Shown here: positions 15,124-41,805 of the stretch, in pieces
How the letters are laid out: every line of letters starts with the position of its first letter
Numbering within the stretch: the stretch's first letter is position 1
NCBI GenBank assembly: GCA_037178675.1
Contig: JAYMGJ010000210.1
Location: forward strand, 1-64,000
Direction of reading: 5' to 3'
DNA: 64,000 nucleotides
DNA from: Scleroderma bovista
Lineage: Eukaryota; Basidiomycota; Agaricomycetes; Boletales; Sclerodermataceae
The notes under the pieces: generated by a model
What the model was told of the DNA's origin: nothing
Database searches by the model: none
The model's input: the letters and a program-made list of their open reading frames with translations, nothing else
Program-made: the position numbers and the translations under genes

Positions 15124-15194
15124 ATGCACCTACTTAGGCCGTCTTACACGGCCACCCGAAGGTGAAAATCGGCCGAGTGTCACGGACCAGCGGA
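15124..15194 (+). repeat. Left terminal inverted repeat of the KDZ element
   Basis: The core starts CCGTCTTACACGGCCACCCG at 15139. It is matched in reverse complement by 41728-41783 almost base for base through ...GTGTCACGGnCCAGCGGA. The outer part ATGCACCTACTTAGG is matched more loosely at the right end (ATGTACCTACCTTGTC). Confidence 0.93.
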
Positions 15195-17227
15195 TGGTAG
15201 CCCAGGAATAATTTGTTATCGATTGCCACGGATGGGCTACCTACTTAGATATTATCACAATGTAATATGGGTGGGCTAGATTGTCAATTAAGGGGAGGGT
15301 GAATGGGTCAAATTAAATATTGTCATGGAAATTAATGGGAGCACATAATTTGTGCTCACTATATCATTCAGGTGGGCCCAGGCCTGCCTTTCATTCATGT
15401 CATTGGACAAGCCCATATTGTATTATCATGTAGGTGTATAGGTGAGCTAAACCAAATCAGAGTAGCAGGGGGCACCAATACACAAATGGCACCGCGGTAA
15501 TTACCCCGGGATTATTGTCAATAATCAGGGGTGTTCCTACCGCGGGTAAAGTGTCACTACCGCGGGTTTGTAATCACTACCGCGGGTTAATAATCACTAG
15601 GTTGGTAATCACTATGAGGGGTTGGTCATCACATCCACGGGGTATGGGTCACTACCGCGGGTTGGTAATCACTACCGCGGGTTAATAATCACTAGGTTGG
15701 TAATCACTACGAGGGGTTGGTCATCACTACCGTGGCTTGGTCATCACTACCGTGGCTTGCTCATTACTACCGCGGGTTGGTTGTCACTACCCTTGGTATG
15801 TGGAATGATTGCAGGCAGGTATAATTCCATATTGTGTGATAATGTAAACCACATGCACCTCCTTAGGCTGATGCATACAACCACACCAGAATAAAAATCG
15901 GCTAATCAGTACAACACAGAACAGGACTATGCTAGAACCATGGTCAGTTATAATAATGGCACAGTAGGTATGACCCATGATTTTATAATATAGGTATATA
16001 GGTGAGCATGTTCAAATCAGTCCAACACAAGGGACACCACTACGCTAATGGCACCGTGGTAATAGCTATTTCAAATAAGCAGTCACTACCGCGGGTGAAG
16101 TGTGACTACCATGGGGGGTGTAATAACTACAATAGGTAAGGGGAACTGCTGCGGGGATGTAATTACAATAGGTAATGGAAACTGCCGTGGGATTAATTCA
16201 ACTACTGGGGGTTAGGTTTAGGGACCACTAGCGTATGAAACAGGATGGAACCAATGTTTGGAAAGAGGACATGCTGCAGCATATAGGCGACTTATTGGTA
16301 TTTGATGTCAGTAACACACCTATTACTGTGGGAACAAAAATACATAGTGACCGCAGGTATATTAAATGATGACTGGTATATAGGTTTATCCTATATAAAG
16401 GAAGTATTAAATAAAAACTAACACTAGGGTTGTTGGATCGCTCTGTGCATGGCAATTATTCAAGGACTATGAATGGTGACATAGTATCAAGTGGAAAAGT
16501 ATTAACTGCGGCAACATTTCCACCGGAACAAAAGTATCAACTGCAGTGACCACCATGGGAGGCATATATTAACATGAAATGGAAAATATAATTTGATTGC
16601 ATTATTGGGGTCATAGATGGGTTATGCAGTACACCGATGCAACCGCGGTAGCTACTGTTGGGTAGTAGAATGACACCGCAAAAGTGGCACAATCCATGGT
16701 GGTGACAGCTCATGCAGGGTAGATAGTACCACACACAATTCAGTGAAATGTACCATTCAAATGAAATTATTTACGATGAATTACTGGACCCCTGGTGATA
16801 AGTGGGCGGGACTCAGTTGGCATACCAGGGCTGCTAAATAATTAACAGCATCTGTGCACAATCGGGGGTAGAATATTTTTTGGGTGAAACAAACAAATTG
16901 CATTCATAAAGTAAAGGACAAAAAAGAATTTAATACATGTGAACCGAAAAAACAATGTCTGGTGGCAAAAAGAAATGTTGTAAAAAAGAAAGTACAAAGA
17001 TGTATGAATAAAGCAAATAGTGTGTGCAAAAACAATGTATGAATGGAGATAAAAAAATATTAAATGTCCATTTTATTCCCTTCCACAGCGCCTACACATC
17101 CCTCATCTGAAACCGCGGGTGCGGGAACTGAGTTATCGGGGACATTGGCGGGACTTATGATGATGATGGGGGGAGGAATCACTTGGGGATCCAGAGGCAT
17201 TCCATCACCTTCTGTAACGTTGGGAGA
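15195..17227. repeat. Left subterminal region with CCGCGG array and a degenerate second terminus
   Basis: No gene is supported. Between about 15491 and 16100 there are about eight CCGCGG sites in a loose unit reading CACTACCGCGGGTTGGTAAT, plus CCGTGG/CCATGG variants. A decayed copy of the element end begins at about 15851 (CATGCACCTCCTTAGGC, then AAAAATCGGC), followed by a copy of 15431-15505 at about 15990-16065. The stretch 16860-17070 is A-rich and probably contains the 3' UTR/terminator of the minus-strand gene C. Confidence 0.8.
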
Positions 17228-20200
17228 CTACAGGGGATGTAAGTAGCGAACCATGGGTGAATCAATAGGACTTACCGCGGTGGTGGGGACAGAATCCCTG
17301 GCTTCATCCACAGCCATTGCATCGTCTGTGGAGATGATGAAGGGAGGGGGGCGTGATGGAGGCACATGGTCATCGCCAGCAGGGCTGGGAGACCGAGGCG
17401 GATGTCTGTCTTCTACCGCGGTTGGACCCCAGAGAGTGTTCAAGAGGTCGGGGGCAATGGATCCCACATGGATCGCGATGGTGGTGGACGCATCAGGCAA
17501 AGATGATGCAGGTGGCTGTGGGGGCGATTCCATGCTTGCAACCGCGGGTGGTGTGGGATCCGGTCCATGGTCTGCAGGAGGGACGTCGGGGGAGCATGCA
17601 GCAGGCGAGGGCGCACGGAAAATTGATGCAGGACTTCCAAGTGGGGTGGAAGTCTGCATGGAAGGGGGAGGGGGCAGTTCTGGATGGACAATCAGCGTAC
17701 CTGACCTCAGACTCTCCATGAGCTGGCGAAGAGTGTCCATTTGAACCTCTTGCGCCTCCAGCCTACGCGTCACATCGCCCAGCTTCTCCTTCAAGTCCAA
17801 ACATTCGCTGCAGGCGCTTGTAGTTGTTGCCGTGGTCATATGTTCGCTGTGTTCGGTGCTTGTACCACGGTCGCTTGATTTTGAAAGCCATTGCGGTTGC
17901 ACTATCAGCACTCCATCAAATTCTGTTTAGATTTTCAGCAGAACGGAGCGAAGGAAATATTTAACCTACTTTCACGTCTGCCCCTTGATGGGCCAAGTGT
18001 GGAAGGTCCAGCTGTGGCTGCTGGACGTGGAGAGGGGACATCCATGGGCGCGGGACTTTTGGCTTTGCGTTTGCGAGCGGAATGGGGAGGGTTGGTACGG
18101 GTTGGGGCAGCAGTAAGTGCTGGTGATGGGGCGGGGTCGGGTTGGCTTGTCCGTGTAGCTGGTGCACGGGACTGCGATCGTGACCTGATGCGCTTGAGTG
18201 ACAAGCTGCACCCATGCTTCCCCTTGTTGCATTGGAAGCATGCACGATCCTCCTTCCTGGCACAGGGTAACATCCGACGGGCGCAGTGGTCACATCGATC
18301 GGCGGCGGGAAGGATTGGGAAGTCGGGAGGGGGATGGTGAAGGTTGTAGGTCTTGGTTACACCACGGCGGGTAGGCTTCGCAGTGTCTTCGTTATCGCTG
18401 TCGACAATGGGGGCGGACTTGACGCATTTACGAGGGCGACGGGATTGGCTACATCCCCGAGTCTGCTCACGTCCACGGTGACGACTTCTTGCCTCCTCTG
18501 CACCAACTGGCTCGGATGGGCTGACCTCATAGCTACTCACCTCATATGCCCTTTGCTTTCCCTTATCAACCCTCTGCATCTCTGCCTGCTCACCATCCAC
18601 CCTGCCTTCGTTGCTTGGTTCCGGAATATTTTCACCGCGGTTGCACCACGGATGGTCAGAGACACTGTCTGCAGGGGATTGGAGCATTTGGGGCCACTTT
18701 GACCATGTTGTAATACCCTCAGATGGATCTTCCAGGTCGCGATCAAGGGCCATGAGCATGGGGGGAATGCTGAAACCGTGCGGTAAGTTCCCCACCACCT
18801 CTCTGACGCGGTTCTGACGGTTGTTAGTGGCATTGAACTATGTTGAATATTGGACTCATGTTACGGTCCAACTTTTTATCTTATCTAATCTGCGATTAGA
18901 TAGCGTTTATCTTATCTTAGTGTACAGCCTCTATCTTATCTACCTAGTCTAGACCTGTACCTCGTGCTGTACACGCTGCCACCCTTGACATCATTACGCA
19001 TAGCCTTCCACCTGCACGTAGCCTCATGGATAGCCTGCGCGTAGCCCTCATGTATAGTAGTATATATACCGTGCAATCCAGCACCCAGAGGCTCCCCATT
19101 CGAGCTCATCTTGGGTCTTTGCTCTAGATACTCGTATCCTATCCTCTCAGAGCCTTAGCGTGTGGTTGGGTCCTTGGTGTTCTGCCTAGGGTCATCTCAC
19201 CTGAGCTCGAATCTAAAACATCTACTTGTTCTTCCACGCGCTGTTCCCCAGCCTAGTAAAGGGAAACTACACCCGGACTCCAGGGTTAAGGAGCTTCTTC
19301 TTCACACCTTCCGTTTCGTTCACGGCCAGCCTTTAGTGCCGTTCCCGTAGTGCTTCGGCATTGGGAGTTCCTAGCACCGTTACCTTACGTACTGTACACC
19401 AGCCCAGGGTCGTGCCTGGTGTCTGAAGGTCGGCGCCCGTTCAAGAGAGGTTCGCAGCCTCAAGGCGATTGAGACATACATACTCCGTAGTTCCTGCGTC
19501 CGTGCAGAGGTAGACCTTGTGATCTGCAGCCGCTAGCCGTTTGTTCTCTGCATAGCTGTGCCACTGCCCTGACCCGGCGAGCGCGACAGGCGAACAGAGT
19601 CTTACGCTTAGTTTAGCGGAACAACTGTGGGGATCTAGTCCCGAAAGTAACCTTACTCCTACGTCACCCCTTACGCTACCACCATACCTTACCAGTTCCC
19701 TCGTCACCTCGTCGAGGCGCAACAGGAGCGCTTGGCGATTATCTACGGTCCCCGCCCTGACACCCTTGTCAAAGTACAGGAAAGGGAGTCAGCCATCGAA
19801 GAGGAGTTCCAGTTTACCAACGCCGTTGCCGCCTACAGTCGCCTTGTCAGCGACTTCGAGATCCAAGTCCTCCTCAGCTTCCACCGTTCCCTTCCTGTTC
19901 CGCCCCTGCCAGACCTCCCGCTCGCTCGCCGCCGCACGTTCCGGTCCTCCCGTCTTCGACCGGTTAAACAAAGACCTACCCCCTATTCCCGCCTCCACCC
20001 CTACTAGGTCCTCATGGCAGACCTTAACCAGCTCCTCGGACAGCTTATCCAGGGGCAAATTGACCTCCAGGCGCATATCGCAGCCCTTGCGGCTGCACAG
20101 CCTCACCCTCCACCGCCGCCGCGCAAGAAGGTGGTCGCGGATCCCGGGAGTTACGATGGCTCCCCTCAGAAGTTCCACGAGTGGTGGTCCAAAATCAAGG

Positions 20201-23200
20201 TTTGGCTACAAATCTCGATGGAGGGGGCAAACGATGCCCAGGTCACCGCAGCAGTTCTCTCCCGGCTCACTGGCCCGAAAGCTGGTCGGTGGGCTCAAGT
20301 CCGTCTGGATAGCTGCATGGCGGCAGCCCAGGCTCTCGCCAACGCCCCGCCCGTCCCAGCCGGACAGCTCCCGCCCCCTCCGGCCTGGCCTGCTTGGGTT
20401 GACTTCGCGGAGGAGATAGAGAGGTTCTTTCTCCCCGGAAACAACGCCGAGTGGGCACGTGCCCAACTTCTCCGCCTTAGGCAGGGCCCAAGGCAAAGAA
20501 TTGATGACTTCTTAGCGCAGTTCGAGGCGCTCAAGAACCAGGGAGACTGTGGGAATGAGTACGCCCGCGACTTGCTCGAACGTGCGCTCCAGAGAAAGCT
20601 CCTGGAGCAAATTTACATACAAGGAATGCGTCGAGACACCTACGAGCGACTCGCAAACTCTGCTCGTGCAATGGGAAGAGCCCAGGAACTCTTCCTCATC
20701 AATCTCCAAGGGCAAGGCTCCGCCCGATATTACCAGGGCCAATCTTATTCGTCTTCAGCCACATCTGGGAGTGGTGTCCCAATGGACATAGGTGCCGTTG
20801 AAGCGAACCAGCAAAGGGGTAAAGGGCCCCAATGCTACAATTGCCAATTGTTTGGCCACATCGCACGTGAGTGCACAAAGCCGCGCCGCCCTCGTCGTGG
20901 GCAACCACAAGCACGGGCAACGCAAGCCCAGCCGGAGGACGACCGGCTAAATGCGGTAAGAGGAATGACGTTTGCAGAAATGCAAGCGTTCTTCAAAGAT
21001 TTAAAAGACTAGTGAGTGAGGATAAAACGGGCATCCTCGCTCTCGAGTCTTCATCGGACTTAGCTGTACGAATTCTGGACTATAGACTTTCTCACGCTAC
21101 TACTCCTGCAGTGCAGGGAATATTTAAATACCGCATTGCTTTGTTACGTACAAAAATAGCGAAAACCCACAAAAAAGTGTCTTCGGTAGTTTCCCCTGTT
21201 TCTGTTTCTCCTTCTCGCTACTCTGTGTTGTCTGTTGATACTATGGACTGTGACTCGAACTGTACTGTACCTTCTAAGGGGGTCCCTGCAAAGGGCTCGG
21301 CGCCGGAAGTAAAATCGAGCGTGCTTAATTCCCGGTCGAATAAAAATGTTTCTTCTCCTTCTTTGGCATCTAAGGAACCGGAAAGTCCCGCCGGCAACTT
21401 GGAAGTTCTCATGGACTTACGAAGGTCCTTCACAATGGAACGTGAAGTGACGGTACCGGTCTGCATCCGCGGACCGCTTAACACTATTAAAGTAGACGCT
21501 CTGCTAGACAGTGGTGCTACTGGTTGTTTTGTTGACAAGAGCTGGGCTTTTGATCGACGACTTCAGTTATCTAAACTGGTGAAACCCGTCCCTGTGCTTA
21601 ACGTAGATGGCACTAGGAATCAGGAGGGTGACATCACGCATTATGTATTGTTGACAGTCGGTATTGGAAAACATGCTGAAAAGCTGTGGTGTGCCGTCAC
21701 GTGCCTTGGAAAAGTGCCGCTTATCCTTGGCCACACCTGGCTTCAGAAGCACAACCCAGATATAGATTGGGTAACAGGCAAAGTTAATTTAACAAGGTGT
21801 CCGCCAGAGTGCAAGTCACTTTTGGAGACACGCTTTGCTAAGTTATTACGAGAAAATGAGTCTCAGGAAACTTGGGTACAAGCTTTGAAAGCTCACGAAT
21901 CAAAGGTCACTATCGATGAGTCGACCCTAGAGGAGGCTCAGAAGCAGGTCCCTAAAGAGTACTGGGAGTTCTTAGATGTGTTTAGTAAAAAGTCGTCAGA
22001 GCGCATGCCGCTAAGAAAACCTTGGGATCATGGAATTGATCTAAAAGAAGACTTCCCGCCCAAAAAGGGAAGACTTATCCCGCTCTCTGTTGATGAGCAA
22101 AAAGAAGTCGAATCATTCCTTGATGATCAACTCGCTAAAGGATACATTCAGCCTTCTATTAGTCAACAGACGTCACCGGTCTTCTTTATCCCGAAAAAGG
22201 ACGGCAAGAAGCGCATGGTACAGGATTACCGTTACGTAAACGACTGGACAATTAAAAATAACTATCCGCTGCCGCTTATCTCTCAGCTTGTTGACAAGCT
22301 TAAGGGTTGTAAACTCTTCACGAAAATGGACCTTCGTTGGGGTTATAACAATGTGAGGATTCGTGAAGGCGATGAATGGAAAGCTGCGTTTGTAACGCAC
22401 AAAGGGGCTTTCGAGCCATTAGTTATGTATTTCGGTCTCTGCAATTCGCCCGCGACATTCCAGAAAATGATGAATGAAATCTTCCATGATATGTCGGATG
22501 TCTGCGTGGTGTATATCGACGACCTTATGATATTTACGGATACGGACAATCAGGAAAAGCATGATAGAATCGTGCTGGAAGTTTTGAAACGTTTACGCGA
22601 TAACGACTTGTTTGTCAAACCTGAGAAGTGTCGCTTCAGAGTCACCGAAGTCGATTTCCTCGGTATGATCGTGTCACGTGAGGGTATCAAAATGGACCCT
22701 GAGAAAGTTAATGCTATTTTGAAATGGCCTGAGCCAACGAACGTAAAGCAGGTTCGCGCGTTCTTAGGTCTCGGTAATTTCTATAGGCGCTTCATTAAAG
22801 ATTATGCAATCATGGCTAGACCCATGACGGACCTTACGTGTAAAGATACGGTATTTAACTTTGGAGAAAAGGAACGCGCTGCGTTTGAGGCTTTGAAAGC
22901 CGCCTTTACTCGTGCTCCGGTACTTCAGTACCCTGACCAGGACCGCGAATTCCGCCTCGAAACCGATGCGTCTGAGTTCGCCGTCGGGGGAGTGATATCC
23001 GTGAAGTGCGAAGACGGCGAATTCAGACCCGTCGCGTACATGTCACATTCCATGACACCTCCAGAACGAAATTATCCTATTCACGATAAAGAGATGCTGG
23101 CCATCATAAAGGCGACTGAGGCCTGGCGTCATTATCTCGAGGCCACTCCTTATGCCTTTGAGATCTACACGGACCATCATAATTTAACGTACTTTACTAA

Positions 23201-25335: not shown

Positions 25336-26191
25336 AGTTTTGTAGGAGTGAGATGAGTGAGAGAGGAAAACAAGTTTGCGGTGTGGAAGCCGCGTGGTAT
25401 GTTGAACATTTATTATGATTAGGTCAGCAGATGTCACACACCCAGACTGACCATTGGTACGTCATCAGGCGCCAAGCCACATGCTAATAATCTCCGTTTA
25501 GCTAGTCAGGCACCAACATCAACATGTAAATTTAATCACCAAGGTATAAATGGAATTGAAGGTCTCATAGGATTTTTGAAGGGAACCCACCGCGGTAACA
25601 TACAGTATTTTAGATTTAACAGTATAATGGGTGCAGTATTAGTATCAAATAGACCACACACAGCAATGCTTGTACAATTGTGATTGCATATTGTGATTGC
25701 ATAGCTAGTGCAAGCGACATTATTCACACTAACCCTTATTGGATAAAATAGCCGCGGAAGGTAAACACAATCAGAAGGCATTTTCGTCGGGTAAATGTTG
25801 AAATGTAGGCTGGACACCTGAAGTCCACTACAAATATAATGTGTGAAATTTCTCTGCTTTCTTGGAAAGCATAGAAAAGTATACCCGCAATGTCTAGTGA
25901 CGGAACAATGACCGCGGGTGTGCTAAACCTGTTTCATTGTCTATTGTTATCAGCAAATACTGACCTACAGCGCTACAATTAGGCTTGTTCATACCTAAAC
26001 ATTTCTACAAAAAGATAGAACAATTGCAATCCATTGAGAGTGATATATAGTACCCGAATTCCACCCTAGATTCCAGATGTCTTAATGGTGGGAAATATCT
26101 TATGTAAGCATTCGACCCGAACATATATGATCGCGGCCTGTGAACACCAAGCCCTTGCCAGCCTTCTTTATTTCATACACGACCACCAACC
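25336..26191. promoter_or_regulatory. Divergent spacer between C and B
   Basis: This 856-bp spacer separates head-to-head starts (25335 minus, 26192 plus). It carries three CCGCGG sites (about 25591, 25753, 25912). A bidirectional promoter is inferred from layout. No core element is assigned. Confidence 0.5.
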
Positions 26192-28151: not shown

Positions 28152-30848
28152 CTACGTTCGGCGCCTCTTTTGTATACGGGCGTCATCATAATCCTCCAGC
28201 CTGGGCGGGAGCCTTTTTGGCCGGACCGACTGCCGCCTTACTACATTCTTTTCCCCGCCATCGCATTTGTGTTGGAGTTGGAGTGATGAATCTCCTGCAT
28301 CTTCTTTTGAGCCTTATGAGTAATTTGCTTGATGGGGCCACAATGCATACCTTGTGTAATGGCGGCCCTTGAAAGACCCGCGGCTGGCACTTGAACTGAC
28401 GGACCACTCCGTTTGGCAACTTCGGAGGGCTGGGCTGGACGTATATCAAATTTGTAAGAATAAATTTATTTGTGATGCAATACGAAGCACTCTTACCTTT
28501 TGTCTTCAACCTTGGTTGAGCCGCGGTGGAGGAAGGGCCGGCACTTGTCACCTGCATGGAGTGAGTGCTGTTATCAGTGACTCCCTGATGTTTGTCTGCA
28601 TGTAGATATTACATATATTAGCGTCAGGATATATTCAGTCCATCCGAAGATCATTACCTTTGGGCTTAAGCAGTGAGTCAGAGCGGGGTATGTCCGCGGC
28701 AGACACATCCACCGCGGGTTTACTCTTTCCTGCCACTGCACTTTGTTTACCTGGATATTGTATCATATCAATTGTCCTAATTGCATGTATGACTTGATAG
28801 GAACACTCTCACCTTTGCTCTTTGTCAATGGCTGAGCAACAGAAGCACCCGTGGTCACTATCTGATCTCCGGCGGTCTTTTGTTTCTCTGCATATAAATA
28901 TTATATATAAGGTGAGTTCTATGTGGGACTTCATAAGAACACTCCCACCTTTTGTCTTTACCCGTGGCTTGGGTTTGACACACACTGCGGTACCCGCGGT
29001 CGGAGGATTCCCGGACCCAGCAGGCATAAAATATGCTGTGTTTGGGGGGCCCACTTTAATACTGTGATGCCCTGTGGAGTCACCGTCGTACAGATCCGAA
29101 CTGGAATCTATGAAAACATATCAATGTATGTTCCTATAGTAATCCAACCTACCCTCTATATTTTTTCCAGCATGCTTCCGCTTTGATCTTTTTTCGCGGC
29201 CATTCTCAGCATTCCCTGCAACACATCAACAATATCCCATTGCATGAATAGATATTCTTACCTTGCATATGTTCTTGGCCGTGGCTATCCCTCACCACCC
29301 CCGCATCCTTAGCAGGACCCATGGCATTTCCATGAGGCGGCACCGCGGGCTGAGTGTCCTCTTTGTCCTCATCATTTGACGTGTCTATCAATGGCTCTGA
29401 GTGTTTGCAAATTTAATAAGATAATATTTACCTTCCCTGCGCTTTTTGCCTGTTCTCTTTGCCGCACTCTTGTGGTTGGTGTTTGCAACCGCGGCCTGTA
29501 GCGACCCATCCGACTCTAACCACCTCTTAACCTTGAAGGTATTCGTGGGATCACTCAGTTGCCTATCTCGCCACCACTCCAATATTTCTGTCGCCTCCTT
29601 ATTCGTAAGCCTGGATGGTTCCTTGAATGCGACATTGGTGGGCCAATATCTGCCCGATATATATGTGCCGCGGTCAAGCGCAATTGCTGCCCATGGGACA
29701 GCAACGTCGGACCGGCCACAAGCCTGTCCTGTTGTGACACGGTGAGTGTTTGATCCATGGAAATTATTTACATACCATAGTGAAAACTGATGAATGCGCG
29801 TACTACATCCTTTTTGTCCTGGGTGTTCATATTCAGGATGACCGGGATGTAGGGGATGCCATCTGCATCTGTTGGAAGGTCGAACCGCGGGCGCCTTTTA
29901 CATTTGACAATCTTTCTTGGAACCGCATCCTCGGTATCTTCACCACTTTCCTCCTCCACACCAAAGACCTGGTGAGCATATCGCTCCCACTTGTTCTCCA
30001 CGCTGTCCCAGCCCTCAAAGAGTTTCCCATCGCCCAATTCGTCATTGAAGTCGTGCCTATGTGTTTCAGTAATAATATATGCAGTCATTAACCACGCTCA
30101 CAGGCCATACATAACATCCCCCGTGGCACCTTTCCAAGCAGCCATCACAACCACTCTGGCACCGCATTGTTTCCACATTTCCTTTGAAAATTCGCGGGCA
30201 AACTTCCGACCTTTTCCTTCCGCGGTTCTATCTGAAGTTTCAGTACCATGCTGCCACGGGATAAGAGTCTCACCTTGCTTGGATCTCTGGGGGGGGGTGG
30301 GTATCATTCCATTCCTTGGCTGTCTTTTCTGCCCGCTCGATGTTCTCCGCGGTCAGTCTCTTTATCACTTTGCCCACCGCCCTCTGATAATTTTTAATAT
30401 ACCCGCTGGAACCCGGTGCATGTCCTGCTCTGGCAAGCACATCATCTATTTTTGCCTTCTCTTGGTCCGCTATTACCATGCGGGCGGTCCACCTGCGGCC
30501 ATATTTGATGAGCTGTTTTTTCTTCCGAGTGCGAGAGTGATTATACAGCCAATTCTGAATGGCCTATGAAAATACAAAATAAGCCAACCTCTCCATAAGT
30601 GAGGGATCACTCACCTTCTTCTTTATCACCCATTGGTGACTCTTGAGTGTCCTGTTGGCCTCCAGCCTTTGAACACTGCTTGCAATGTCCTTGAAAATGG
30701 ACTTCCTTTTTGTTGCGTCAGCCGCCATCCACTGTTCCAGTTTCTCCTGGACAATGACGACCTCATCTTTGCGAAGGGGGGTCTTGCCTTGCCCAGTGGC
30801 ATCAGACCTCTCACCGCTATCGCTCTCACTGTACTCAGATTCGGACAT
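28152..30848 (-). CDS. A : KDZ-linked protein of unknown function with basic micro-exon tail
   Basis: The minus-strand gene starts at ATG 30848 (MSESEYSESDSGE) and stops at 28152. Exon 1 is acidic and then helical. Exon 2 has NHSRTRKKKQLIKYGRRWTA and PPPEIQA. The next exons have WKQCGARVVVMAAW, HDFNDELG, VENKWERYAHQVFG, RKIVKCKRRPRF, VVRAFISFHY, VPWAAIALD and ILEWWRDRQLSDP. The tail is a series of short Lys-rich exons, four of which end in a KxKG codon group right before the splice donor (about 28500, 28655, 28812, 28945). The C-terminus is basic (IQKRRRT). The splice between exons 2 and 3 (about 30270-30230) could not be resolved in frame. No family is recognised. The basic tail suggests nucleic-acid binding. 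It is divergent from the transposase gene. Confidence 0.65.
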
Positions 30849-31274
30849 GGGTGAGGTGGAATCTTTGCAGCGAGTTCCCAATTCCGGCACACATACCGGC
30901 CTGTTGATTGAAGTTCACGTGGTCACTTGCTTCCCATGTCACAGGGACCCTTGATCTTACTTTACCATGTATGGGCAGATGTAATACGGCGCCCGAGGAA
31001 TATTTGGTAAGGTTCCCTGGGTATCTGCAAAGGTCTTACCATACATGGAAAGGTCCATGTTGCTCAGGGTCCATTTTGACAACGCTTGTGTGCCAATCTC
31101 AAGATCTCAGGCCGTAATTGGTAAGGTTCCATTTGTGCCTGATCGTGGTCCCGACCGAGTGGATTGACACCGGAGGATCCCAATCCGATGCAGTTGGTCG
31201 AGTTCAAGGTATTGCAATGAGGCATTTCAAGGTTAAAAGTGGTTGTTTTGTGAGCTTCACATCCAGAGACAGTC
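30849..31274. promoter_or_regulatory. Divergent spacer between A and the KDZ transposase
   Basis: This 426-bp spacer separates head-to-head starts. It contains a 13-bp direct repeat TTGGTAAGGTTCC at 31004-31016 and 31118-31130, and a pair ACCATGTATGG / ACCATACATGG at about 30964 and 31040. These are possible operator-like sites of a shared promoter (inference). Confidence 0.5.
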
Positions 31275-34200
31275 ATGGGGAAGTCCAAGGTAGTAAAAGT
31301 AGGCCCCTCTACACCTGTAACACAGGTGACATGGAAGACAGTAAGATCTGGTAGACAGTCCAAGGACAAGATTGTCAAGGCTCCACCCCGGAAAAAGGCA
31401 CGCATTGAAAGAGCTGATGATCAGTCTCCCACTCGCGCTGGTTCATCGGCATTGGAGCACACCAGTTTCCTTCCAGATGAGCCTGTAGAGGCATATTCTA
31501 TGACAGATGATCCACCCCTGCGAGCATGTAAATTGCCAAGGAACCAGGTCTGATGCACCTTCCACACTCTTAATATATATCTCATCGAATCATAGGACCA
31601 CTATCTGCGAGACTGGCTGCCCTGGAAAGGCAAATATTTGTCAGTGCTCCTGGAAATGGAGGCACCCCCTGCATCAAGGATCTGTATGCGGTGTGGAAAG
31701 GATGGGGCAATTAGGTGCACTGAATGTGCTCATAGGCCAATCTTCTGCACAAACTGTTGCCTTGATACACACGAGGTCGGTCCCTTCCATCGGATTCAGA
31801 GGTGGACTGGAAGCTTCTTTGAGGACTTCTCTCTTCGCCTGGTGGGTCAGTTCTTTCACCATATCCACATGTTAATTAATAAAGCAGATTGGATTTGTAA
31901 TGCACTTGGGCCACGGTGGAAAACCATGTCCTAGTGGAGGGTATAGCCGCGGGAATAATGCAAGTGATGATGAAGATGCTTGGGAAGATGTGGAGGACGA
32001 TGGGAGCCCACCTCATCTAGCTAGACCACGGGACCGAAGTTTCCTAACTTTGGTGCACACTAATGGGGTGCACTTTTGCGACATTCGGTACTGCAGCTGT
32101 GATGGTTCAGAGGATTCACATCTGCAACTTATGATGGCTGGCCTTTTCCCTGCGACAACAAAAAGTCCCAGGACTGCATTTACCTTCCAGGTGCTGGATG
32201 ATTTTATCCGGGACAATGTGGAATGTGGCACCACTGCGATGAACTACTATAGTAAATTGCAGAGACTAACATCCAATGCATTCCCACATGCGGTGCCAGT
32301 AAGTGAAGTAACCTTTTGTTTACCGCGGCACTGACACCGCGGATGAAATAGAATAGGTACAGAGATCTGCTGAGGTTGTCAAGGGCATGGAGATTGTTGA
32401 AGCTTCTCAAGTGGCAAGGATTCCACGGAATCTCGGAGGAACCTGGGCCAGGGGAGCTGGTCCTCTTTTGCCCCGCATGTCCCCAACCTGGGGTAAATTT
32501 ACCGCCCGCGGGAGGGGTCGATCTCACACAGTGAGTATAGGTTGTAATTATTCTATTATTTGCAAATACAACTGATTTGTACAGCTGGAAATATTCGAGG
32601 ATCATTGCTATGGATGGAAATTTCAAAGCCGAACATATGTTGCTCAAACAAGCTCCAAACGAAGTCTGGTTGATGGATGGAAAAGGGTTCATGGTAACAT
32701 CGCAGCCTTATAAGTCCTATTTAGCAGGAAGCACAAATCGAGTGGAGGTATGACCTCTTTTACTTGAGCAGCGGTAATTCCTCATGTTGCCATTAGAAAT
32801 CGGACTGTAGCAATCATCGTGCGGTCAATCAGGCCAATACTAGTCGAAGTCAGTTGGCATCAACTGGAATTGGTGGATGTGCCTGTGCTAGACATGGGTG
32901 CTTTGTTCCGCATGCCATGGTTGATTTCCAAAAAGGAGAGCAGTATGTCCGCGGCTCCCATATAAAATCGCTTCATTGACCCGCGGATAGGCAAGTCAAC
33001 ATGGATTATTCCTTGGTGCATGCAGTGCATCACAGAATGGACCACCAACAGCGGGTGGTAAACTTCTATGACATCAATTGTCAATACAGCAAAAACCTGT
33101 ATCGGCGTATAGAAGAGAACCGGTTTTTGTCTCTCCCACCCAGACTGAAGATTCAACCCGGCATTGGTATATGGCATGTCCATGGACATCAATCGGAATG
33201 TTTCATGAGGTATTCCCCTAATTTCATTCCTGGAGTAGGCAATGTGGACGGGGAAATAATGGAGACTCTCTGGTCGTCCTTAAATATTATTTCCCCCTCC
33301 ACCCGGGGAATGGCTGCCCCTCATCGGCAGGAAATGCTGGACTTCCAAATGAATGACAGTAATTTCTTGAAGATGGTCCGCATGCGTGAGTGATCCTTAA
33401 TTGCGGGTATTGCACCGGTATTCAAATATTCCAGCTTTGTCATTGAAGAGGAAACTAACTGCCGCCCAACGGAATCTTTCATCATCTCGTTATGCCTTTG
33501 CTACTTTGGATACAACTGTGCCTGAAGACATTCGTGATATTTGGAAGGCCCAAGAGTCGAAGGCACTTGTGGAGAGGCTATCCAATCCAACGGCCATGGA
33601 TATATTTGAAGTTCGGTTAGAAAAGGGTATGTCCTCGTGTAATACATACAGAACAAGGCTGAAATCCCATGGCAAGCACCAAGTATTAAATCCATGGAGA
33701 TTAGCCTCATAGAAATGCAAGCCGCGGCAGGGGCACTGCGAGGATCCGCCACATGGATGGCAAGGGCCTTGAAGGTGGAGGAGTCTCAGATAGTGCTCTT
33801 ATTGGATGCACGCAGGATCGATTCAAGAACTACCGAAAGCCAAAGGCTTGACATTTCCCGCCGTCGCGACAGGCTACAGTCTCAAATCAATAGCTTGTTG
33901 CAGACCGCGGCACCATTTGTTGGGGCCGACTGGGACAGTGGACTTGATAGCCGTGACAATGGTGACCCAGGGAGTGATGAAGATGGTATTTTCGTTACTG
34001 TATCCCCAGGGAATGCAGAACATGCCATACTGCCGCTGCCTTCCTATATGGGATTGCGGCGGTGCGGTGAATTGGAGCTGAATGGCCTGGTGGAGCAAGA
34101 ACTTCAGCTCAGACAAGGCCAGGCCAATGATGCTCTGCATGAAATACGGCTTGCTCTCGCAGACAAGGCAATTTTATTTCGCACAGAGGTCCGACATGGG

Positions 34201-34761
34201 AAAAACTATGCTGTGACAACCCGCGCTTGGAAAAAGGTATCGGACCTGGACACCTTGGTCAAAAGATATTCCGCGGTCTATAATCAGTGTCGAAAGCAAA
34301 TGGTTGCTTTGGGAGCTGACCAAAGCATTCTTGACCGGTATCAAATACTGAACAAGAAGGATCTCACAGTGAGTACCGCGGTGTCCGATCCCAATGCAAG
34401 GGGCCATCGCCATGACTCCTTGGCATGGTTCTGGACTATGGACATTCCAAAGGACACTGATAAAAATGATTGGATGTCAGAGTGTAAGCTTTGAAATCTT
34501 CGGTCATATATACCTACTTAACAATTTCAAATAGTTTACCGGGTTCATTGGTTACGGGCGAAGGCAAGACAAGATCGATGGACTGAGGAGGTGGACCTCA
34601 TAATTTCAGAACAGGGTTGGACACATAACTTCTTCAGAAAGCGGGCAAACTTCTGGGAGGAAAAAGCAGCGAAAGCAGCATTGGACTGTGACCGCGGCAT
34701 GGCATGTTATTCAGCAAGGCAATATGACATGTACAACAAATTGAGTAAACTTTGCCAATAG
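31275..34761 (+). CDS. KDZ transposase with CxC2 cysteine cluster
   Basis: This is the element's transposase. It starts at ATG 31275 (MGKSKVVKV) and ends with a stop at 34759-34761. Early exons are 31275..31547, 31596..31841, 31888..32298 and from 32352, all phase 0. A basic N-terminus precedes the CxC2 cluster (CMRCGKDG, RCTECAHR, FCTNCCLDTHE; 31680-31775), then VMHLGHGGKPCP. The catalytic core shows the KDZ acidic motifs: AMDGNFKAEHM (about 32608), NFYDINCQYSKNL (about 33064) and GVGNVDGEIMETLWSSLN (about 33234), with WHVHGHQSECF between. A long helical C-terminus follows. It should bind the terminal repeats and cut and paste the element. No stop or frameshift was seen, so it may be active. 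It is divergent from A. Confidence 0.92.
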
Positions 34762-35071
34762 ATGATTGTTTGTATTATTTTTACATCCTGGGAATTGGAG
34801 ATGATGAGTCGTGGCCGCGGTGTGCAAAGCTATGGTTGGCAAACATGCTGTGCCAATATTGGTGAATAGCACTTACCCTACCATGTCACCTAAGCCCATT
34901 ACCATCCAAGGCCATCCAAAATATCTCACAGGATACTTGAGTTACTATACCTTTATGCAGCCGTGGTGTTAATGGCTTCCCCAATAAGTATTCTTTTGAT
35001 TGTTCAGAAGCCACCCATTGAACACCACATGCATAATAATTCTACATTTTATGTGTCATTATGGAATACAT
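34762..35071. other. Convergent spacer between KDZ and D
   Basis: About 310 bp between two convergent stops, with a CCGCGG near 34815. No gene is seen. It presumably holds the 3' ends of both transcripts. Confidence 0.6.
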
Positions 35072-35870
35072 TCAATGGTCTGTTCCCCTCCAAAGTTTGT
35101 CCGCGGACACCGCCCACTTCTCCTCCAGCTCATCGGGAGAATCTGTTAGGTATTCCACCATGCTCATGCGGTCGACGAGATGATGTAATCGTGCATTTTG
35201 ACAAAAGATCTTCTCATCCACTTCGTTCAAGAGATGCTGGGTTTGTAATTTGATATCCTCGATCCCCAACCCCGCGGTTTCATTGACTTTGAATAGGCTC
35301 GGAATGCCATAATCCCCTGGCTGCAATGAATGATGATTAGCAATGTGTTTTCATATCGTTGTGAACTCACCTGGTTCTGCGGAAAGAATTGCTGTGCCTC
35401 TCTGACTAGCTGGCTGAGTGTTTGCCGCGGTACCGCATTGCCAGGGATACCCCATACCCACCATTCTCCCGGTGTGGCCCGTGGACTGTGGACTCTGGCT
35501 TCCGCGGGATACGCCTTGAAGACCTCGATGGTTTTGATCTGGCACATCAACGTTGGTGCATCTGGGTCCCCAATAGACACCCATTCCATGACTTGAGCCG
35601 CAACCGCGGGAACCTGCATCACCAGCCCATGCTTGTTGCACACCGCAAGTAATCGCTCCAAAATTGCCTGCAGGATTGGTCAGCCCATTTGATGTGATTG
35701 GAATTCAAGCATCGCACCACTTCCGCCAATACATGGGCATGCCAATCGATCTTCTCCCACAGCGAATCTTCCCCTCTCTGCTGCAAAGCATGTACGAACC
35801 GACGGAATCTGATACCCGCATATTGTAAAGTAGCCGAGAGTGTGCGTGCGTGAATACTGGAGGAATCCAT
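35072..35870 (-). CDS. D : KDZ-element protein of unknown function
   Basis: The gene reads complement(join(35072..35320, 35371..35667, 35721..35870)), 231 residues with all introns in phase 0. The start is MDSSSIHARTLSAT. It is mostly helical, with IRFRRFVHALQQRGEDSLWEKIDW, AILERLLAVCNKHGLVMQVP, EWWVWGIPGNAVPRQTLSQL and a C-terminal acidic helix (SPDELEEKWAVSADKLW). I recognise no domain, signal or membrane segment. It is head-to-head with the Tet/JBP gene and convergent with the transposase gene, which makes it a likely accessory protein. Its counterpart in element 2 would lie outside the window. Confidence 0.65.
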
Positions 35871-36741
35871 GGGTGTAGAATGGGGAGTAATGATTGATAT
35901 TTATAATTGATCCACCAACATTCCCACGTACGGCCTACCATTGTTTATCAAACAATGACCCCCCACCCAGTTGGCATTGATCAATATCACCCATTGCTCC
36001 CGCGGATATATAATTAGTTCATCCCTTTTCTCCTATCTATATGTGATTAGTATGTCTGGATTTCAATTAGATATCTAATCTCCCCGCGATGACATATAAC
36101 CGCAGTCGCAATATAAGTAATCTGCTGTGAATGCCAAATGTAAAGACAGAATTGGTCAGGGAATTGACACCTCATTATTGCCTTTTTCTAATATGAATTG
36201 GCGATCTATTTTGTGAATCTCTCGCCGTGCCTAATGGCTGCGGCAAGTTGACCCATCGATAACAAATATCCCGCGAGATAACAATCATTCCAATGTTGGT
36301 ATTATCCTCTCTTCTTTGTCAGATAATTTCTCTCCTCCTGCATTTGATATCAGCAATCAATCATATGTACTGATACATCACCATTGTCCGATCGGTCACC
36401 GCGGCTGCGAGCAACCTCTCCCATGGACTTTATACCAACCTGTGACATTTCAAATTGTATCAATTGCTCACCTTCTTATGTATTATTTACAGGTTTGGCC
36501 AATCAATGCTTACTGATGTGGGTTCCACCCGCGGCTGATCTTCTAACATGATTTGTATCTACATGTTGGCACCGCTCCAAAACAGTAAATTCCATTTCCT
36601 GTCTTTATTTTTCCTATATAATTTATTTATAGGTTTGAATTTCGTTGATTATCCAGCCATCACCCCTCAATCTACCTGCGGTCGCCACATAAATATTCTA
36701 CAATATCCCGGCTTTGCTTGTGTCCTATTTAGCTCCCCTTC
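35871..36741. promoter_or_regulatory. Divergent spacer between D and the Tet/JBP gene
   Basis: This 871-bp AT-rich spacer separates head-to-head starts (35870 minus, 36742 plus). It contains CCGCGG sites at about 35999, 36400 and 36529. A promoter function is inferred from layout. Confidence 0.45.
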
Positions 36742-38648
36742 ATGGCTGCTTGTTACGACCATGCCCAACTCCGGGTCCTATCCGGTCACTCCGGTCGCTT
36801 CGCAGCTTTACAGCTGAACTCCGGTCGCCCACCAATTACTCCGGTCGCGCTCACGCAGATAACCTTCCGTTAAGCACGACCCTTGGTCTATGCTCTATTC
36901 GTTCGTTACCACACCTCGCCGTCAACCCTGCTTGGTCGTGAGTTCTCCGTGTACTTGTTATATCTCCTGCCTTGTGTTATTTTCACCGGACCTGATTTAT
37001 TTTACCCGGACCTGACTTTATTTTCATCGGACCTGACCTAGTACTTTCTCCGGTTGTCCCTTGTCCGCTATTAGGCCGTTTACTTGTCACCGTATATACT
37101 CGCCCCTAGTTTGCACTTAGTATAAGTACTCTGTAGATTATCCTGTACTCCTCAGTCTGAAATCAACCATAGTCTCTACTCCTGATCTTGCCCGTCTCCG
37201 TCTCTGTCTCCGTCTCCCCTTCTTGACCGGAACCTACGCAAGGGATCAACGCTCGTTGTCCTTAGTCGTTGAATCCAAGCGGTCACCAACTCCGGCCGGA
37301 CTAATCTCTTGTCCAGCCCTCTGCTCTCCCCCTTTGTCCGCTTCTGTCCGGACTTGACCGGACCCCCTACCGGAGTAGACCCGGACTTGACACTGCTCCT
37401 GTGTCTTACCACACTGATTATCATCTTTCCTACCAAGTTGCTGGTTATATGCGACACTGCTTTTGTTCCTTGGCATTCCTGGACTCTGGCACCGCGGCAC
37501 CGCCTGTTCCCCTTGACCTCCCAGTTGACCTTTCTGTTGGGATGCACCAGATGGTTGCAACTTTAGTGACTGCATATAATCATCGCAGTATGCCTTGTTC
37601 ATGTCTCTTCCTCCAGTGCTCATCTGTGTCCAGTTGACTCTGGTGTTGACCTCATCCGGCTCGCTGAATCATTGGCATCCATGGAGCCTGGGACCACCGC
37701 GGATAGGGAGCAAGCCTTCCTTACCAAGTTCCCTGCTACTATTTCAGGTCTTATCGATGAACCAGCGATGATTTTGGGGGAGGGGGGAATTGTAGCTTTG
37801 TGGTATCTTCCTGGTGCCCTGGCACGCCCAACACAGGTATGATCCGATACCTCTTTTGTTCATCATTTTCTATAATACCTGTAGACAAATATTCTGCAGG
37901 CATTAAGTCCACTCCATACACAACTATCCGCCAGTATAACTGGCCAGACATGGCGCTCTGACCCGCGGTACTTTCATCCGGCACAGGCCTTTGTGACTGG
38001 TTGTTTGGAGCTTTCTCCTGCAAGGCATCAAATGGGTCATTATGTGAGTGCTTACCATTCCTGCCATACATTCGTTAATGAAAATATATTCAGCATGAAA
38101 ATGCTTCCATGTCCAGGGACCTTAATACCGCCGCGGGATTCCAGTGGTTACAAGCTATGGTTCAGCCGACCTCAATTATATCGGGTGCATTGTCAATCAT
38201 GCATCCACAGCTGTATGACGATGGAATGCGAGGAATTAAACTATTGGGAGATTGGTCTTCCACAAACGACCCCGGCATGAACAGGGCCTTATCCCTCTGG
38301 CCCACCCCATTTACCAATATTTCCCTTATTGCAAACCGGTCCACCCCCCTCCACCGTGATCCCCAATCCCGTGCCAGTTGGTACGATGTCATAGTAAATG
38401 TGGGTGAATACACTGACTGTGTCATGGCCATCCCTACCCTCGGCATCGAGCTGGTGTACAAGCCAGGTACCGCAGTCGCATTCTCCGGGAGGCTTCTTAG
38501 GCACGGGGTAAATGCTGTAGAAGGAAACCGGCACTGTTTGACCTACTATATGAGGGATAACATTCACCATTGGGTAAGGGTTCCAAGGTGTGCGGATTGG
38601 ATGAGGATTGATAGTGTGGAGAGGTTGTTGAGGCCTACCATACTGTAA
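36742..38648 (+). pseudogene. Tet/JBP-family 2-oxoglutarate/Fe(II) dioxygenase, interrupted by a solo LTR
   Basis: Exons are 36742..36750 joined (across the LTR insert) to about 37398..37587, then 37634..37836, 37900..38043 and 38094..38648, with matching phases. The catalytic domain shows the Tet/JBP signature: the iron-binding H-x-D in TPLHRDPQSRASWYD (about 38340), a NVGEY stretch, IELVYKPGTAVAFSGRLLRHGV with the distal His, and NRHCLTYYMRD with the Arg that holds 2-oxoglutarate. This family oxidises the methyl group of 5-methylcytosine (Tet) or thymine (JBP). Fungal members are known to travel with KDZ elements. The catalytic part is intact. However, a 642-bp solo LTR lies three codons after the best start, and reading through it meets a stop near 36874. 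Translation could still begin at the in-frame ATG 37449 if the LTR or another promoter drives it. Confidence 0.85.
36751..37392 (+). mobile_element. Solo LTR (TGTTACGACC family) in the Tet/JBP gene
   Basis: It starts TGTTACGACCATGCCCAACT, ends CGGACTTGACA, and is flanked by CTGCT target duplications at 36746-36750 and 37393-37397. CTCCGGTCGC occurs three times near its 5' end, and TATATACTCGCC near 37093 may be its TATA region. A truncated inverted copy is at 41806-42079. No internal retroelement sequence remains, so it arose by LTR-LTR recombination. Confidence 0.92.
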
Positions 38649-39590
38649 ATACTGGAAAGGAATTTGTAGAGCTGGGATGTATATTACTATTGATATCTCT
38701 TCATAGGAGAATTAGCAAATGCACATGGAGTGGAATTTTAGAAATGATATTGTGTGCTACAGGTGTCTGGCAACATTGCCGCGGCTACTCAGGGTTGCTT
38801 ATTGGAGAAACAACACTTATTTCACCACGGGTTATCCATATGATACATGGCTGTATGTATACCTGGTACATCAGTGGTGTCCCGCGGGTATGTCTAGGGC
38901 AATCATTGTTGTCTTGATTCCGCCGCGGATTCATTTTGTTGGGACTACTTTGTGCATTTATTCTACTACCGCGGCTTCTTTCAGGTGCGGCATGTTGCTG
39001 CGGCCATTTTGACATACCTTACACCCAGATATCAGTCTCCGTGAGCCCAACTATTACTGTCGGCCAGTCATATATGGGCCCATCCACGTTCGATAGAAAC
39101 ACCATATGTCAGCCTAGCCATGTCAATGCGGGTTAGAAATTATGTGCCCTCCGTTGGGTCCGAGGCCGATGTTATTTTGGCCAACTGGTATTCCAGGTCA
39201 CAACAAATCTATAGCCCACCCTTGACACACCGGATGATGCAGGTATCCACTGGCTCACCATATCTCATTGGACCCATCACACCTCAGCCCACCCGTACTA
39301 CTTGGCATCACGAAATATGGGCTCACCTATACCTTAGTGACAGTTTTACCTTGGCTGGCCCATATGCTACGGCGCCGGGTAATAATAGCCTGTCCATCTC
39401 AAATGAGAACATCATAGTGTAAGCTCACTCGTGGTATACGACCTTAATAGATATGGGCTACCCTTGGTTCAGGGGACATTGCTATTTTGGCTGATGTACA
39501 TGATGAGGGACAGTATATTCAAAGCCCACCCGTGCTACATGGGATAATGGCATCATATATGGGCTAGCCCGTATCACATTGCAATCATCC
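38649..39590. other. Right subterminal region, proximal part
   Basis: No gene. It contains four CCGCGG sites (about 38779, 38881, 38922, 38970) and repeated GGCCCA / GGGCTCACC words that lead into the 168-bp tandem repeats. Confidence 0.55.
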
Positions 39591-40262
39591 ATTCTCAGCC
39601 CACTCATGCTACTCGTGATGATAGAATATGGGCTCATTGGTATCTTAGGGACTATGCTATTTCAGCTCACTCATATTACATGGGCCCATATAATAACAGC
39701 CTGCCCATATGACATGGGATGGTATAATAGTGGCCCATCCATACCCCATGAGGAGGTCAATGTGTCAGCCCACTCGTGCTACTCGGGATGATGCAATATG
39801 GGCTCACCTATACCTTAGGTGAAGGTTATTTCGGCTCACTCATGTTACACAGGACCATATAATAGCAGCCTGCCCATGTGACATGGGATGGTATAATAGT
39901 GGCCCATCCATATCCCATGAGATCAATATGTCAGCCCACTTGTGCTACTCGGGATGATGCAATATGGGCTCACCTATACCTTAGGTGAAGGTTATTTCGG
40001 CTCACTCATGTTACACGGGACCATATAATAGCAGCCTGCCCATGTGACATGGGATGGTATAATAGTGGCCCATCCATATCCCATGAGGAGATCAATATGT
40101 CAGCCCACTCGTGCTACTCGGGATGATGCAATATGGGCTCACCTATACCTTAGGTGAAGGTTATTTCGGCTCACTCATGTTACATGGGACCATATAATAG
40201 CAGCCTGCCCATGTGACATGGGATGGTATAATAGTGGCCCATCCATATCCCATGTCAGCCCA
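39591..40262. repeat. About 168-bp tandem repeats
   Basis: Four consecutive copies of a unit beginning CAGCCCACTCGTGCTACTCG start at about 39597, 39766, 39932 and 40101. Each contains ATATGGGCTCACCTATACC and TGACATGGGATGGTATAATAG. The later three copies are nearly identical. Confidence 0.9.
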
Positions 40263-40299
40263 ATATGGGCTCACCTGTACCTTAGGGGACAGACCCAGG

Positions 40300-41470
40300 G
40301 TGGCCCTATCCTCTGGTACTCAGCCCGCGGTGGGTACTCACTTGGGTAGTCAACCTGTGCTGTGTAATCAACACCAGTGGCTAGCTAACCTGCAGTGGGC
40401 AGCTAACCTGCAGTGGGTAGTCAACCCACCATGGGTGGTAGTGCAACCGCGGTTGGTAGTCAATCCGTGGTGGGGAATCACTCTACTGGGTAGTTAGCTT
40501 TGGGTGCGTAGCCAAGGGCAGTGGCTAGGTAATGGGTGGTTGGCAGCTAACCCGCGGTATGCATTGAACCCGCGGTATAACCTGCAGTGGGTCGTCAAGC
40601 CTGGGTAGGTACTGGTTAGACCTGGGACCTTGGTTGGTGGCCAACCCGCGGTGGGTCAGCAGTAGCTAGCTAACCCGTGGTGGGTAGCCAACCCGCGGTA
40701 TGTATTGAACCCGCGGTGTCACCTGCATGGGATAATCAACCCACAATGGGCGGTCACCCCTGGGTAGGTACGTGGTTGGTAGTACGACCGCGGTTGGTAG
40801 TCAACCCGCGGTGGAGAGTCATCAGTGGGTAGCTAACCCATATTGGTCAGCTAACCTGTGGCATGTATTGAACCCGCGGTGTAACCTGCAGTAGGTGGTC
40901 AACCAGGGGTAGGTACGTGGTTAAAGCTGGGACCACGGTTTGTGGCCAACCCATGGTGGGTACTCACTCCACTGGTTAGTAAACCTGAACTATGTAGTCA
41001 ACAAGGCCAGCTAACCCATGGTGGGCAGCTAACCCGCAGTAAGTATTGAACCTGCGGTTTTTGCAGTGGGAGTCGACCCACAATGGGCAGTCACCCCTGG
41101 GTTGGTAGTGCGACCGCGGTGTAGTCAACCCCCGCTGTGTAGTCAACAGTAGTGGGTGGATAACCGGTGTTGGGCAGCTAACCCGCGGTGTGACCTGCAG
41201 TGGATGGTCAACCCTGGGTAGGTACATGGTTGGAAATAGTTGCTGGCCAACCTAACCCGCGCGAGTAGTTAACCCTGGTTAGTAGTGGGCCCGTAGTGGG
41301 ACCGTGGTTTGTAGTAATCCCGCGGCGTGTAGTAATCCTGCGGTGTGTGATGCCTGTATATGTATAGTCAGCTGTAGTAGTCCATCAATGGTAAGTAGTC
41401 AACCCGCGGTAGTCAACCCCAGTAGTTCACCCACGGTAATGGAGCCAGTTCTGCTGGTAGGTTGATTAGA
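40300..41470. repeat. Right subterminal CCGCGG array
   Basis: About 14 CCGCGG sites occur in an irregular repeat of the form GTAGTCAACCCGCGGTGGGT. Many sister units have TpG or CpA at the motif (CCATGG, CCGTGG, CTGCGG, CTGCAG). No gene is present. The right terminal inverted repeat follows at 41728. Confidence 0.9.
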
Positions 41471-41727
41471 TTCGTTCCTACTGTATGCAGTAGTATCTAT
41501 TTTTGCTAGCCCACCCCATACCTTTGCATTCCAGTAAATCTGGGCTCATCCATTAATGTGCACCCAGTAAGATTGTGGCCCACCAAGATGTCATGATGAC
41601 AATTCCTATATCCCTACCACAACCCCTCCTTAACTACCACCATAGCCCACCCATATCACATGGTAAAAAAATCATAGTGTGTAAGCCCACCCGTATTACT
41701 CGGTGATACTCCATCCATGGGCTCCTG

Positions 41728-41799
41728 TCCGCTGGCCCGTGACACTCGGCCGATTTTCACCTTCGGGTGGCCGTGTAAGACGGGACAAGGTAGGTACAT
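41728..41799 (-). repeat. Right terminal inverted repeat of the KDZ element
   Basis: The reverse complement matches 15124-15194, nearly identical over the inner 56 bases and looser over the outer 16. Six bases later, at 41806, homology to the LTR family begins abruptly. Confidence 0.93.
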
Positions 41800-41805
41800 T
41801 ATGTG

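Follow-up and report, generated by a model that had tools for sequence, protein, structure and literature searches.

A TET-carrying KDZ transposon of Scleroderma bovista with an element-wide CCGCGG word and a candidate zinc-cluster reader

We analysed a 64,000-nucleotide stretch of the basidiomycete Scleroderma bovista (hereafter the window; GenBank assembly GCA_037178675.1, contig JAYMGJ010000210.1), which forms the start of a 111-kb contig (C210), and searched the genome of 51.8 Mb in 850 contigs. The window contains an autonomous-type, TET-carrying KDZ (Kyakuja-like) DNA transposon with six genes (C, A, B, KDZ, D and TET), across the whole of which about 80 CCGCGG words are spread and kept against CpG decay. 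One of the genes, C, encodes a predicted zinc-cluster protein, and judging from sequence comparison we give a probability of roughly 55% to the reading that C reads CCGCGG as a self-address and brings TET-based anti-silencing or activation to its own copies. That KDZ and TET are linked and that such elements make 7-bp target duplications has been published before; the CCGCGG motif is a new observation. A first-pass annotation, made from the letters of the window alone, had overlooked this motif as well as a second, related element at window positions 1-7293.

No other hexamer of the element is as enriched as CCGCGG. We counted 78 copies in the window element and 80 in C145, a copy in which all six genes are open, against a mean of 2.4 and a maximum of 7 in 100 resampled sequences; the second copy on contig C258 ("C258b"), which belongs to a second subfamily with 79-90% identity to the window over 25138-36750, has 52 (resampled mean 1.9), and a related family, F3, has 30 in 14.4 kb (1.2 expected). 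Outside the element there were none in the 15.1-kb left flank, four in the 22.2-kb right flank, and two in a nested Ty3/gypsy retroelement. The density in C145 is 3.4 per kb in exons, 2.8 in introns and 5.0 in intergenic DNA, 30 of the 80 sites being exonic and placed at several codon phases. Synonymous-codon shuffling of the six coding sequences gave 3.9 copies for these 30 (maximum 11 of 2000), and CCGCGG ranked first among all hexamers in this test, so that codon usage was dropped as the source of the word. Genome-wide, close pairs of CCGCGG (4-34 bp apart) numbered 292, against 51 for a reversed control pattern; among the 50 places listed, we read 43 as belonging to this element group, since its ends or genes occur there, and 7 as lying elsewhere.

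The word is also retained between diverged copies. C258b keeps 21 of 40 aligned sites, compared with 58 of 199 other two-CpG hexamers (p 0.006), and F3 keeps 14 of 28, compared with 32 of 150 (p 0.004). At the level of single CpGs, 57 of 81 inside sites and 195 of 420 outside are kept in C258b (p 9e-5), and 37 of 59 and 126 of 320, respectively, in F3 (p 0.0015). Many of the 19 sites lost from C258b show changes of the C-to-T type (CCGCAG 7, CCGTGG 4, CCACGG 2). Mutation, gene conversion or the growth of tandem arrays might have produced CCGCGG as a functionless by-product, which could explain why some sites lie in tandem arrays near both ends and why their spacing is random; however, 66 sites are left in C145 after masking of the arrays, for which reason array growth was dropped as their source, the 30 exonic sites at several codon phases exceed synonymous shuffling, and CpGs within sites are retained more often than other CpGs in C258b and, separately, in F3, and we regard a by-product as highly improbable.

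Gene C shows the cysteine pattern CX2CX6CX7CX2CX6C (at about 18294), as the zinc-cluster protein of the first-pass annotation had suggested, and a coiled coil was read in its exon 4. A search of the window in six frames for CX2CX6CX5-12CX2CX6-8C found exactly two matches, one per KDZ element, and none in 10 mononucleotide shuffles of the window. In having this pattern followed by a coiled coil gene C is similar to GAL4 and Pdr1/Pdr3, and a CGG-triplet palindrome is its likely site; the yeast zinc-cluster proteins Pdr1/Pdr3 use TCCGCGGA elements (PDRE) according to the text of PMC5539612, and these contain the same core as CCGCGG. Gene C differs from these proteins in that it lies below Pfam detection, is transposon-borne and looks otherwise largely disordered.

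From these features a mechanism can be proposed. The KDZ transposase would move the unit, and C, probably a dimeric Zn2Cys6-like protein to judge from its cysteine pattern and coiled coil, may bind as dimers to CCGCGG, an everted CGG-triplet pair of the kind read by fungal zinc-cluster proteins. In this way C might mark every copy of its own family along the whole length through the CCGCGG address and could recruit the TET enzyme, and perhaps also A, B and D, or give them access. TET would oxidise methylcytosine where C sits, the element would stay expressed, other DNA would be left alone, and families might diverge by joint change of the zinc cluster and the word. More tentatively, and at somewhat less than an even chance, this could be a previously undescribed type of transposon self-recognition, in which a TET element with about 80 CpG-holding palindromes along its entire length, some of them within codons, carries its own reader and directs demethylation or activation to its own family; sister families in this genome would have moved to different palindromes together with changed zinc clusters and would represent matched reader-address pairs.

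Related gene sets are present in three further families, F2, F3 and F4, beside that of the window element (F1). The zinc cluster of F3 is identical to that of F1 in 30 of 34 residues, and both families have CCGCGG. In F2, the truncated element at the start of the window, 16 of 34 residues are identical, there is no CCGCGG, and the word is ACCGGT, with 21 copies (1.05 expected), 19 after masking, and 11 outside one array region, against a mean of 1.0 and a maximum of 4 of 200; close ACCGGT pairs number 905 genome-wide, against 491 for the reversed pattern. The zinc cluster of F4 shares 15 of 34 residues with F1. In seven other KDZ loci of 3.4-3.7 kb (L001-L003 and L005-L008; L004, with word counts equal to those of L003, was excluded for that reason) nothing similar to these palindromes was present, the best candidate reaching 6 copies; in L002 the word CCGGAG occurs 7 times (vs 0.37). 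Since there are four families only and other genes diverge together with C, the pairing of zinc cluster and word is no more than suggestive. A host zinc-cluster regulator or host silencing factor might also read CCGCGG, the element having gathered sites for it, and fungal hosts do use CCGCGG-type elements (Pdr1/Pdr3, as described in PMC5539612); however, the related element in the same genome has ACCGGT and no CCGCGG, and nearby host sequence is poor in the word (4 in 22 kb), which makes a host reader very improbable.

Several observations weigh against C as the reader of the word. The Pfam Zn2Cys6 model was matched neither by C nor by nine relatives, and we therefore term gene C Zn2Cys6-like; its only matches in the PDB were to GAL4 and weak (E 0.29 to 2.2), a profile of C relatives found one unrelated match only (E 3.6), and the AlphaFold model of a C relative was poor (predicted local distance difference test, pLDDT, 44.6) and gave no Foldseek match. 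Coding stretches of F2 nearly lack its word (1 copy in about 2.56 kb), and spread of the motif into exons therefore applies to F1 and F3 only; in F4 the word signal is weak after array masking (CGGCA 47 vs 14.4, GCCGGC 9 vs 1.6). KDZ, B and TET diverge between the families too, and the pairing with C is thus not unique. The 21 of 40 sites kept in C258b are about equal to the 49% of all other hexamers kept there, and the excess of kept sites therefore holds only against CpG- or GC-rich words. Finally, the sites are randomly spaced, and an even spacing, considered as a further feature, was dropped.

Another protein of the element, for instance the KDZ/CxC2 transposase or B, might instead read CCGCGG for transposition or element-wide packing, with C doing something else. 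All six genes co-vary between families, motif-rich arrays lie at both ends, and B is the most constrained gene; such a protein would resemble plant helper proteins that bind motifs, e.g., TnpA of Spm. The TnpA motif of Spm is subterminal, whereas CCGCGG spans the window element: its sites occur throughout 19 kb and are not restricted to the ends, the CGG-triplet form of the word fits a zinc cluster, and in the window the cysteine pattern is found in C only. We therefore consider another reader within the element unlikely, and C remains the preferred candidate.

The closest working model is provided by the VANC proteins of the VANDAL transposons of Arabidopsis, which bind YAGTATTAY in the non-coding DNA of their own family and remove methylation element-wide (Hosaka 2017, PMC5735166). 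In both systems a transposon-coded protein is paired with a short own-family motif, which in the case of VANC is shown and here would have C as the reader; related families have other targets, and the motifs occur also in tandem arrays. As described in that article, VANC sites are confined to non-coding DNA, whereas the CCGCGG sites are also exonic (30 of 80 in C145), and VANDAL elements are without TET, whereas the window element has it; kinship between VANC and gene C is not expected. According to PMC10398659, TnpA of maize Spm is likewise an activator encoded by the very element with whose demethylation it is connected, a role similar to the one that we propose for C.

Among KDZ elements, TET+ Kyakuja DNA transposons of the Agaricomycotina with 7-bp duplications have been reported (Kojima 2025, PMC12730594), in agreement with the first-pass annotation, which took the linkage of KDZ and Tet to be established in basidiomycetes. 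They share with the window element the KDZ transposase, an AG-type TET, the 7-bp duplications and the presence of many copies per genome. According to the same source, two Laccaria Kyakuja families have 5'-CA..TG-3' ends and no inverted repeats, whereas here the ends are 5'-GA..TG-3' with an inverted repeat of about 180 bp, and we therefore name the element Kyakuja-like only. The KDZ transposase, the AG-type TET and the 7-bp duplication all match that paper, and the element could be a plain TET+ Kyakuja element with nothing beyond it; the text of PMC12730594 within our scope, which did not extend to its supplements, makes no mention of a family-wide motif or a zinc-cluster gene, and with its six genes and element-wide CCGCGG the window element goes beyond what is described there, so that we think this very unlikely. 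The mobile elements KDZ1-KDZ3 of Cryptococcus (9-11 kb, CxC1, duplications of 8 bp in KDZ1 or 4-8 bp; PMC12810828) also have long inverted repeats, and no TET gene is named in the text of that article within our scope. In the literature searched, which lay outside subscription journals, supplements and Repbase, neither a CCGCGG motif nor a zinc-cluster gene was reported for KDZ elements.

The proposed pairing of C with CCGCGG bears on the question of how transposon-borne TET enzymes choose their targets, non-targeted TET oxidation in mushrooms being discussed as a possibility in Kojima 2025 (PMC12730594). If the pair of C and CCGCGG is true, target choice can be tested directly on individual proteins with short probes; the pair would then be a second, independent, fungal counterpart to the plant VANC systems, with the address written into coding sequence, and programmable demethylation modules could naturally be drawn from the matched pairs of a single genome. 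Leaving the motif aside, the conserved set of six genes and the exact ends firmly define a large, recently active KDZ-TET group.

The boundaries of the element were set to 15118-41805 by alignment of 38 left-type and 35 right-type ends, out of at least 40 of each among the matches listed (Table 1). The first-pass annotation was right in recognizing a six-gene KDZ unit bounded by two ends, but its coordinates (15124-41799) have to be replaced, and it overlooked that the unit is interrupted by a nested Ty3/gypsy element and a solo-LTR-like (long terminal repeat) insert and has mismatched flanks. The terminal inverted repeats which it had noted are present but imperfect (about 180 bp with 77% identity and a near-identical core, by BLAST of end against end). 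Left ends begin with GACCCCATGCACCTAC, 26 of 38 being identical across 23 bases and the rest having single changes, and right ends terminate in GTACATTATGTG. Among the 1330 left-right end pairs (38x35), 12 showed exact 7-bp target duplications, where about 0.08 are expected by base chance; exact matches of 5 bp occurred once, those of 6, 8, 9 and 10 bp not at all. The element itself is about 19.4 kb long, the window copy having the two inserts in addition. Over 25138-36750, identity to the window is 99.4-99.9% in the copies C305, C145, C86, C21 and C227.

Both ends, correctly oriented, were found on at least 12 contigs (C210, C145, C86, C21, C227, C258, C20, C380, C202, C488, C201 and C178), with an exact 7-bp duplication in five, 6 of 7 bases in C227, and none in six. 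The left duplication of the window copy, GGTGGGT, differs from its own right flank and equals the duplication bordering the right end of copy C86:190.7 kb; the unmatched ends of C210 and C145, which have a common left flank (99.6% identity), pair with this same copy, and that of C201 pairs with C178. Copies have swapped ends, through recombination or in the assembly, and the window copy is therefore recombined or misassembled.

The termini were not found at unrelated elements, except that seven left ends (C546, C489, C193, C181, C12 and C1 twice) lie next to a single identical flank and end in an altered terminus (GGCCCC); here one repeat seems to carry the left terminus through duplication. 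Pairs of right-type ends face each other at C43:18187-22400, C263:38032-50880, C572:56775-61837 and C816:507-3518 and resemble non-autonomous derivatives with two right ends, that on C43 also having close CCGCGG pairs. At C236:21296-29281 a left and a right end have a common 7-bp duplication, AGAGTTC, but are not oriented as the two borders of a single element, an arrangement that represents an inversion or misassembly.

Table 1. Positions of the KDZ-TET element, its genes, motif sites and inserts, and of the truncated relative, in the window
Feature	Position	Strand	Remarks
F2, truncated second relative	1..7293	+	cut by contig start; motif ACCGGT
F2 genes	KDZ start 157-2 (-), B 601-1975 (+), A 3753-3553 (-), C 5258-7293 (+)		zinc cluster at 6382
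Left 7-bp target duplication GGTGGGT	15111..15117		partner is the right end of copy C86:190.7 kb, not 41806
Left end and terminal inverted repeat	15118..15301	+	5'-GACCCCATGCACCTAC...; 38 left ends aligned
78 CCGCGG sites	15118..41805		inserts excluded; in all six genes, introns and spacers
Left subterminal tandem array	15537..15791		6 CCGCGG
Gene C, predicted zinc-cluster protein	17228..25335	-	506 aa in copy C145
Gene C exons	25335-25144, 18813-18541, 18462-18057, 17922-17617, 17571-17228	-	predicted model
Nested Ty3/gypsy retroelement	18859..25137	+	in intron 1 of gene C; foreign to the unit
Gene A	26192..27602	+	405 aa, 5 exons; N half proline-rich, C half helical-looking
Gene B	29388..30848	-	423 aa, 5 exons
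KDZ transposase	31275..34761	+	991 aa, 10 exons; CxC2 and KDZ domains
Gene D	35072..35870	-	232 aa, 3 exons
642-bp solo-LTR-like insert	36751..37392		right after codon 3 of the TET model
TET/JBP dioxygenase	37393..38648	+	371 aa in copy C145, 4 exons; CcTET-like
Right subterminal arrays	40343..41348		12 CCGCGG
Right end and terminal inverted repeat	41620..41805	-	...GTACATTATGTG-3'; 35 right ends aligned

Gene models were predicted with a comparison-based gene finder (C145 against C258b) and then corrected by sequence; order and strand are C(-), A(+), B(-), KDZ(+), D(-), TET(+). The full KDZ transposase and the Tet/JBP dioxygenase of the first-pass annotation were confirmed by matches to PF18758 (E 1.4e-52) and CxC2 (PF18803, E 1.1e-24) and to Tet_JBP (PF12851, E 2.9e-17), respectively. 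The TET protein aligns with CcTET (7vpn, 8jkk; E about 3e-26) and retains its iron-binding and cytosine-contact residues: the HRD motif is aligned, the equivalent of Asp337 is kept, and Ser stands at the place of Gly331 (residue numbering and the criteria for an AG-type TET, the Asp337 equivalent and Gly/Ser at 331, follow the text of PMC12730594). A, B and D had been called proteins of no known family, and a Pfam search with A, B, C and D likewise gave nothing above cut-offs, A being queried as a fragment and B and D as preliminary splice models (B with a wrong exon 2/3 join, D with an incomplete exon 2). Protein searches, again with the preliminary models of B and D, found 15 matches for B, all from Pisolithus or Scleroderma, 5 relatives of D and 12 of C. 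A KDZ-linked divergent HMG protein was reportedly described by Iyer in 2014. When protein B was examined for an HMG fold, the AlphaFold model of a B relative was poor (pLDDT 44.5) with a helical N part, and no PDB match at E <= 0.001 was found.

All six genes are under purifying selection, with ratios of nonsynonymous to synonymous change (dN/dS, against C258b) of 0.14 in B, 0.20 in KDZ, 0.23 in both D and C, 0.26 in TET and 0.35 in A; C258b is worn, since gaps break the frame of every gene except D, and A, B, TET and C each have a premature stop, and these values therefore blend constraint with later decay. The open frames of the window copy differ from those of C145 by one residue each in A and B, two in KDZ and none in D, and the exon lengths of gene C are equal in both. 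Other copies have broken genes: B has a one-base gap in C305, C86 and C21, C has a stop in C305, in C86 KDZ has a gap and D a stop, in C21 A has a stop and C a gap, and in C227 KDZ has a one-base gap. An insertion of about 1.1 kb interrupts the first coding KDZ exon of C86, at the place of window 31352-31360.

The accessory genes travel with the KDZ unit. F3 (on C288) has all six genes in the order and orientation of the window element, the first-pass annotation having thought a unit with its accessory genes and their order worth describing as a system; F4, assembled from two contigs (C72 and C157), also has six, with D/TET and C turned. In F2 the KDZ start, B, A and C follow the order of the window element, and D and TET are absent from the stretch 1-7293. 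Rather than occurring mostly without KDZ genes, D has a KDZ or TET match within 20 kb at no fewer than 66 of 70 loci, B at no fewer than 43 of 62 and C at no fewer than 26 of 45; these are lower bounds, as only the KDZ and TET matches listed were used, and loci were grouped by hand. KDZ matches with 20 kb on either side make up at most about 11% of the genome.

The nested Ty3/gypsy insert encodes reverse transcriptase, RNase H, integrase and a chromodomain, and its two 341-bp LTRs (18859-19199 and 24797-25137) are 100% identical and flanked by the target duplication ACTCA. The 642-bp insert has TG..CA ends and a 5-bp duplication, CTGCT, and was read as a solo LTR; past it a downstream in-frame ATG is present in TET. 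Both insert sites are empty in the copies C145, C86, C21 and C227. The stretch that separates the TET gene from the right end contains a 169-bp tandem repeat of about 3.9 copies (39595-40254), and the right flank starts at once with the sequence of the 642-bp insert in reversed orientation (82%; 41806-42079). Further to the right, a TPR-type frame with a 270-bp tandem repeat (48173-49019) and then a HET-domain frame occupy 47939-51258, followed by host genes with an OPT oligopeptide transporter frame (51806-53998) and a kinesin frame (62487-63302).

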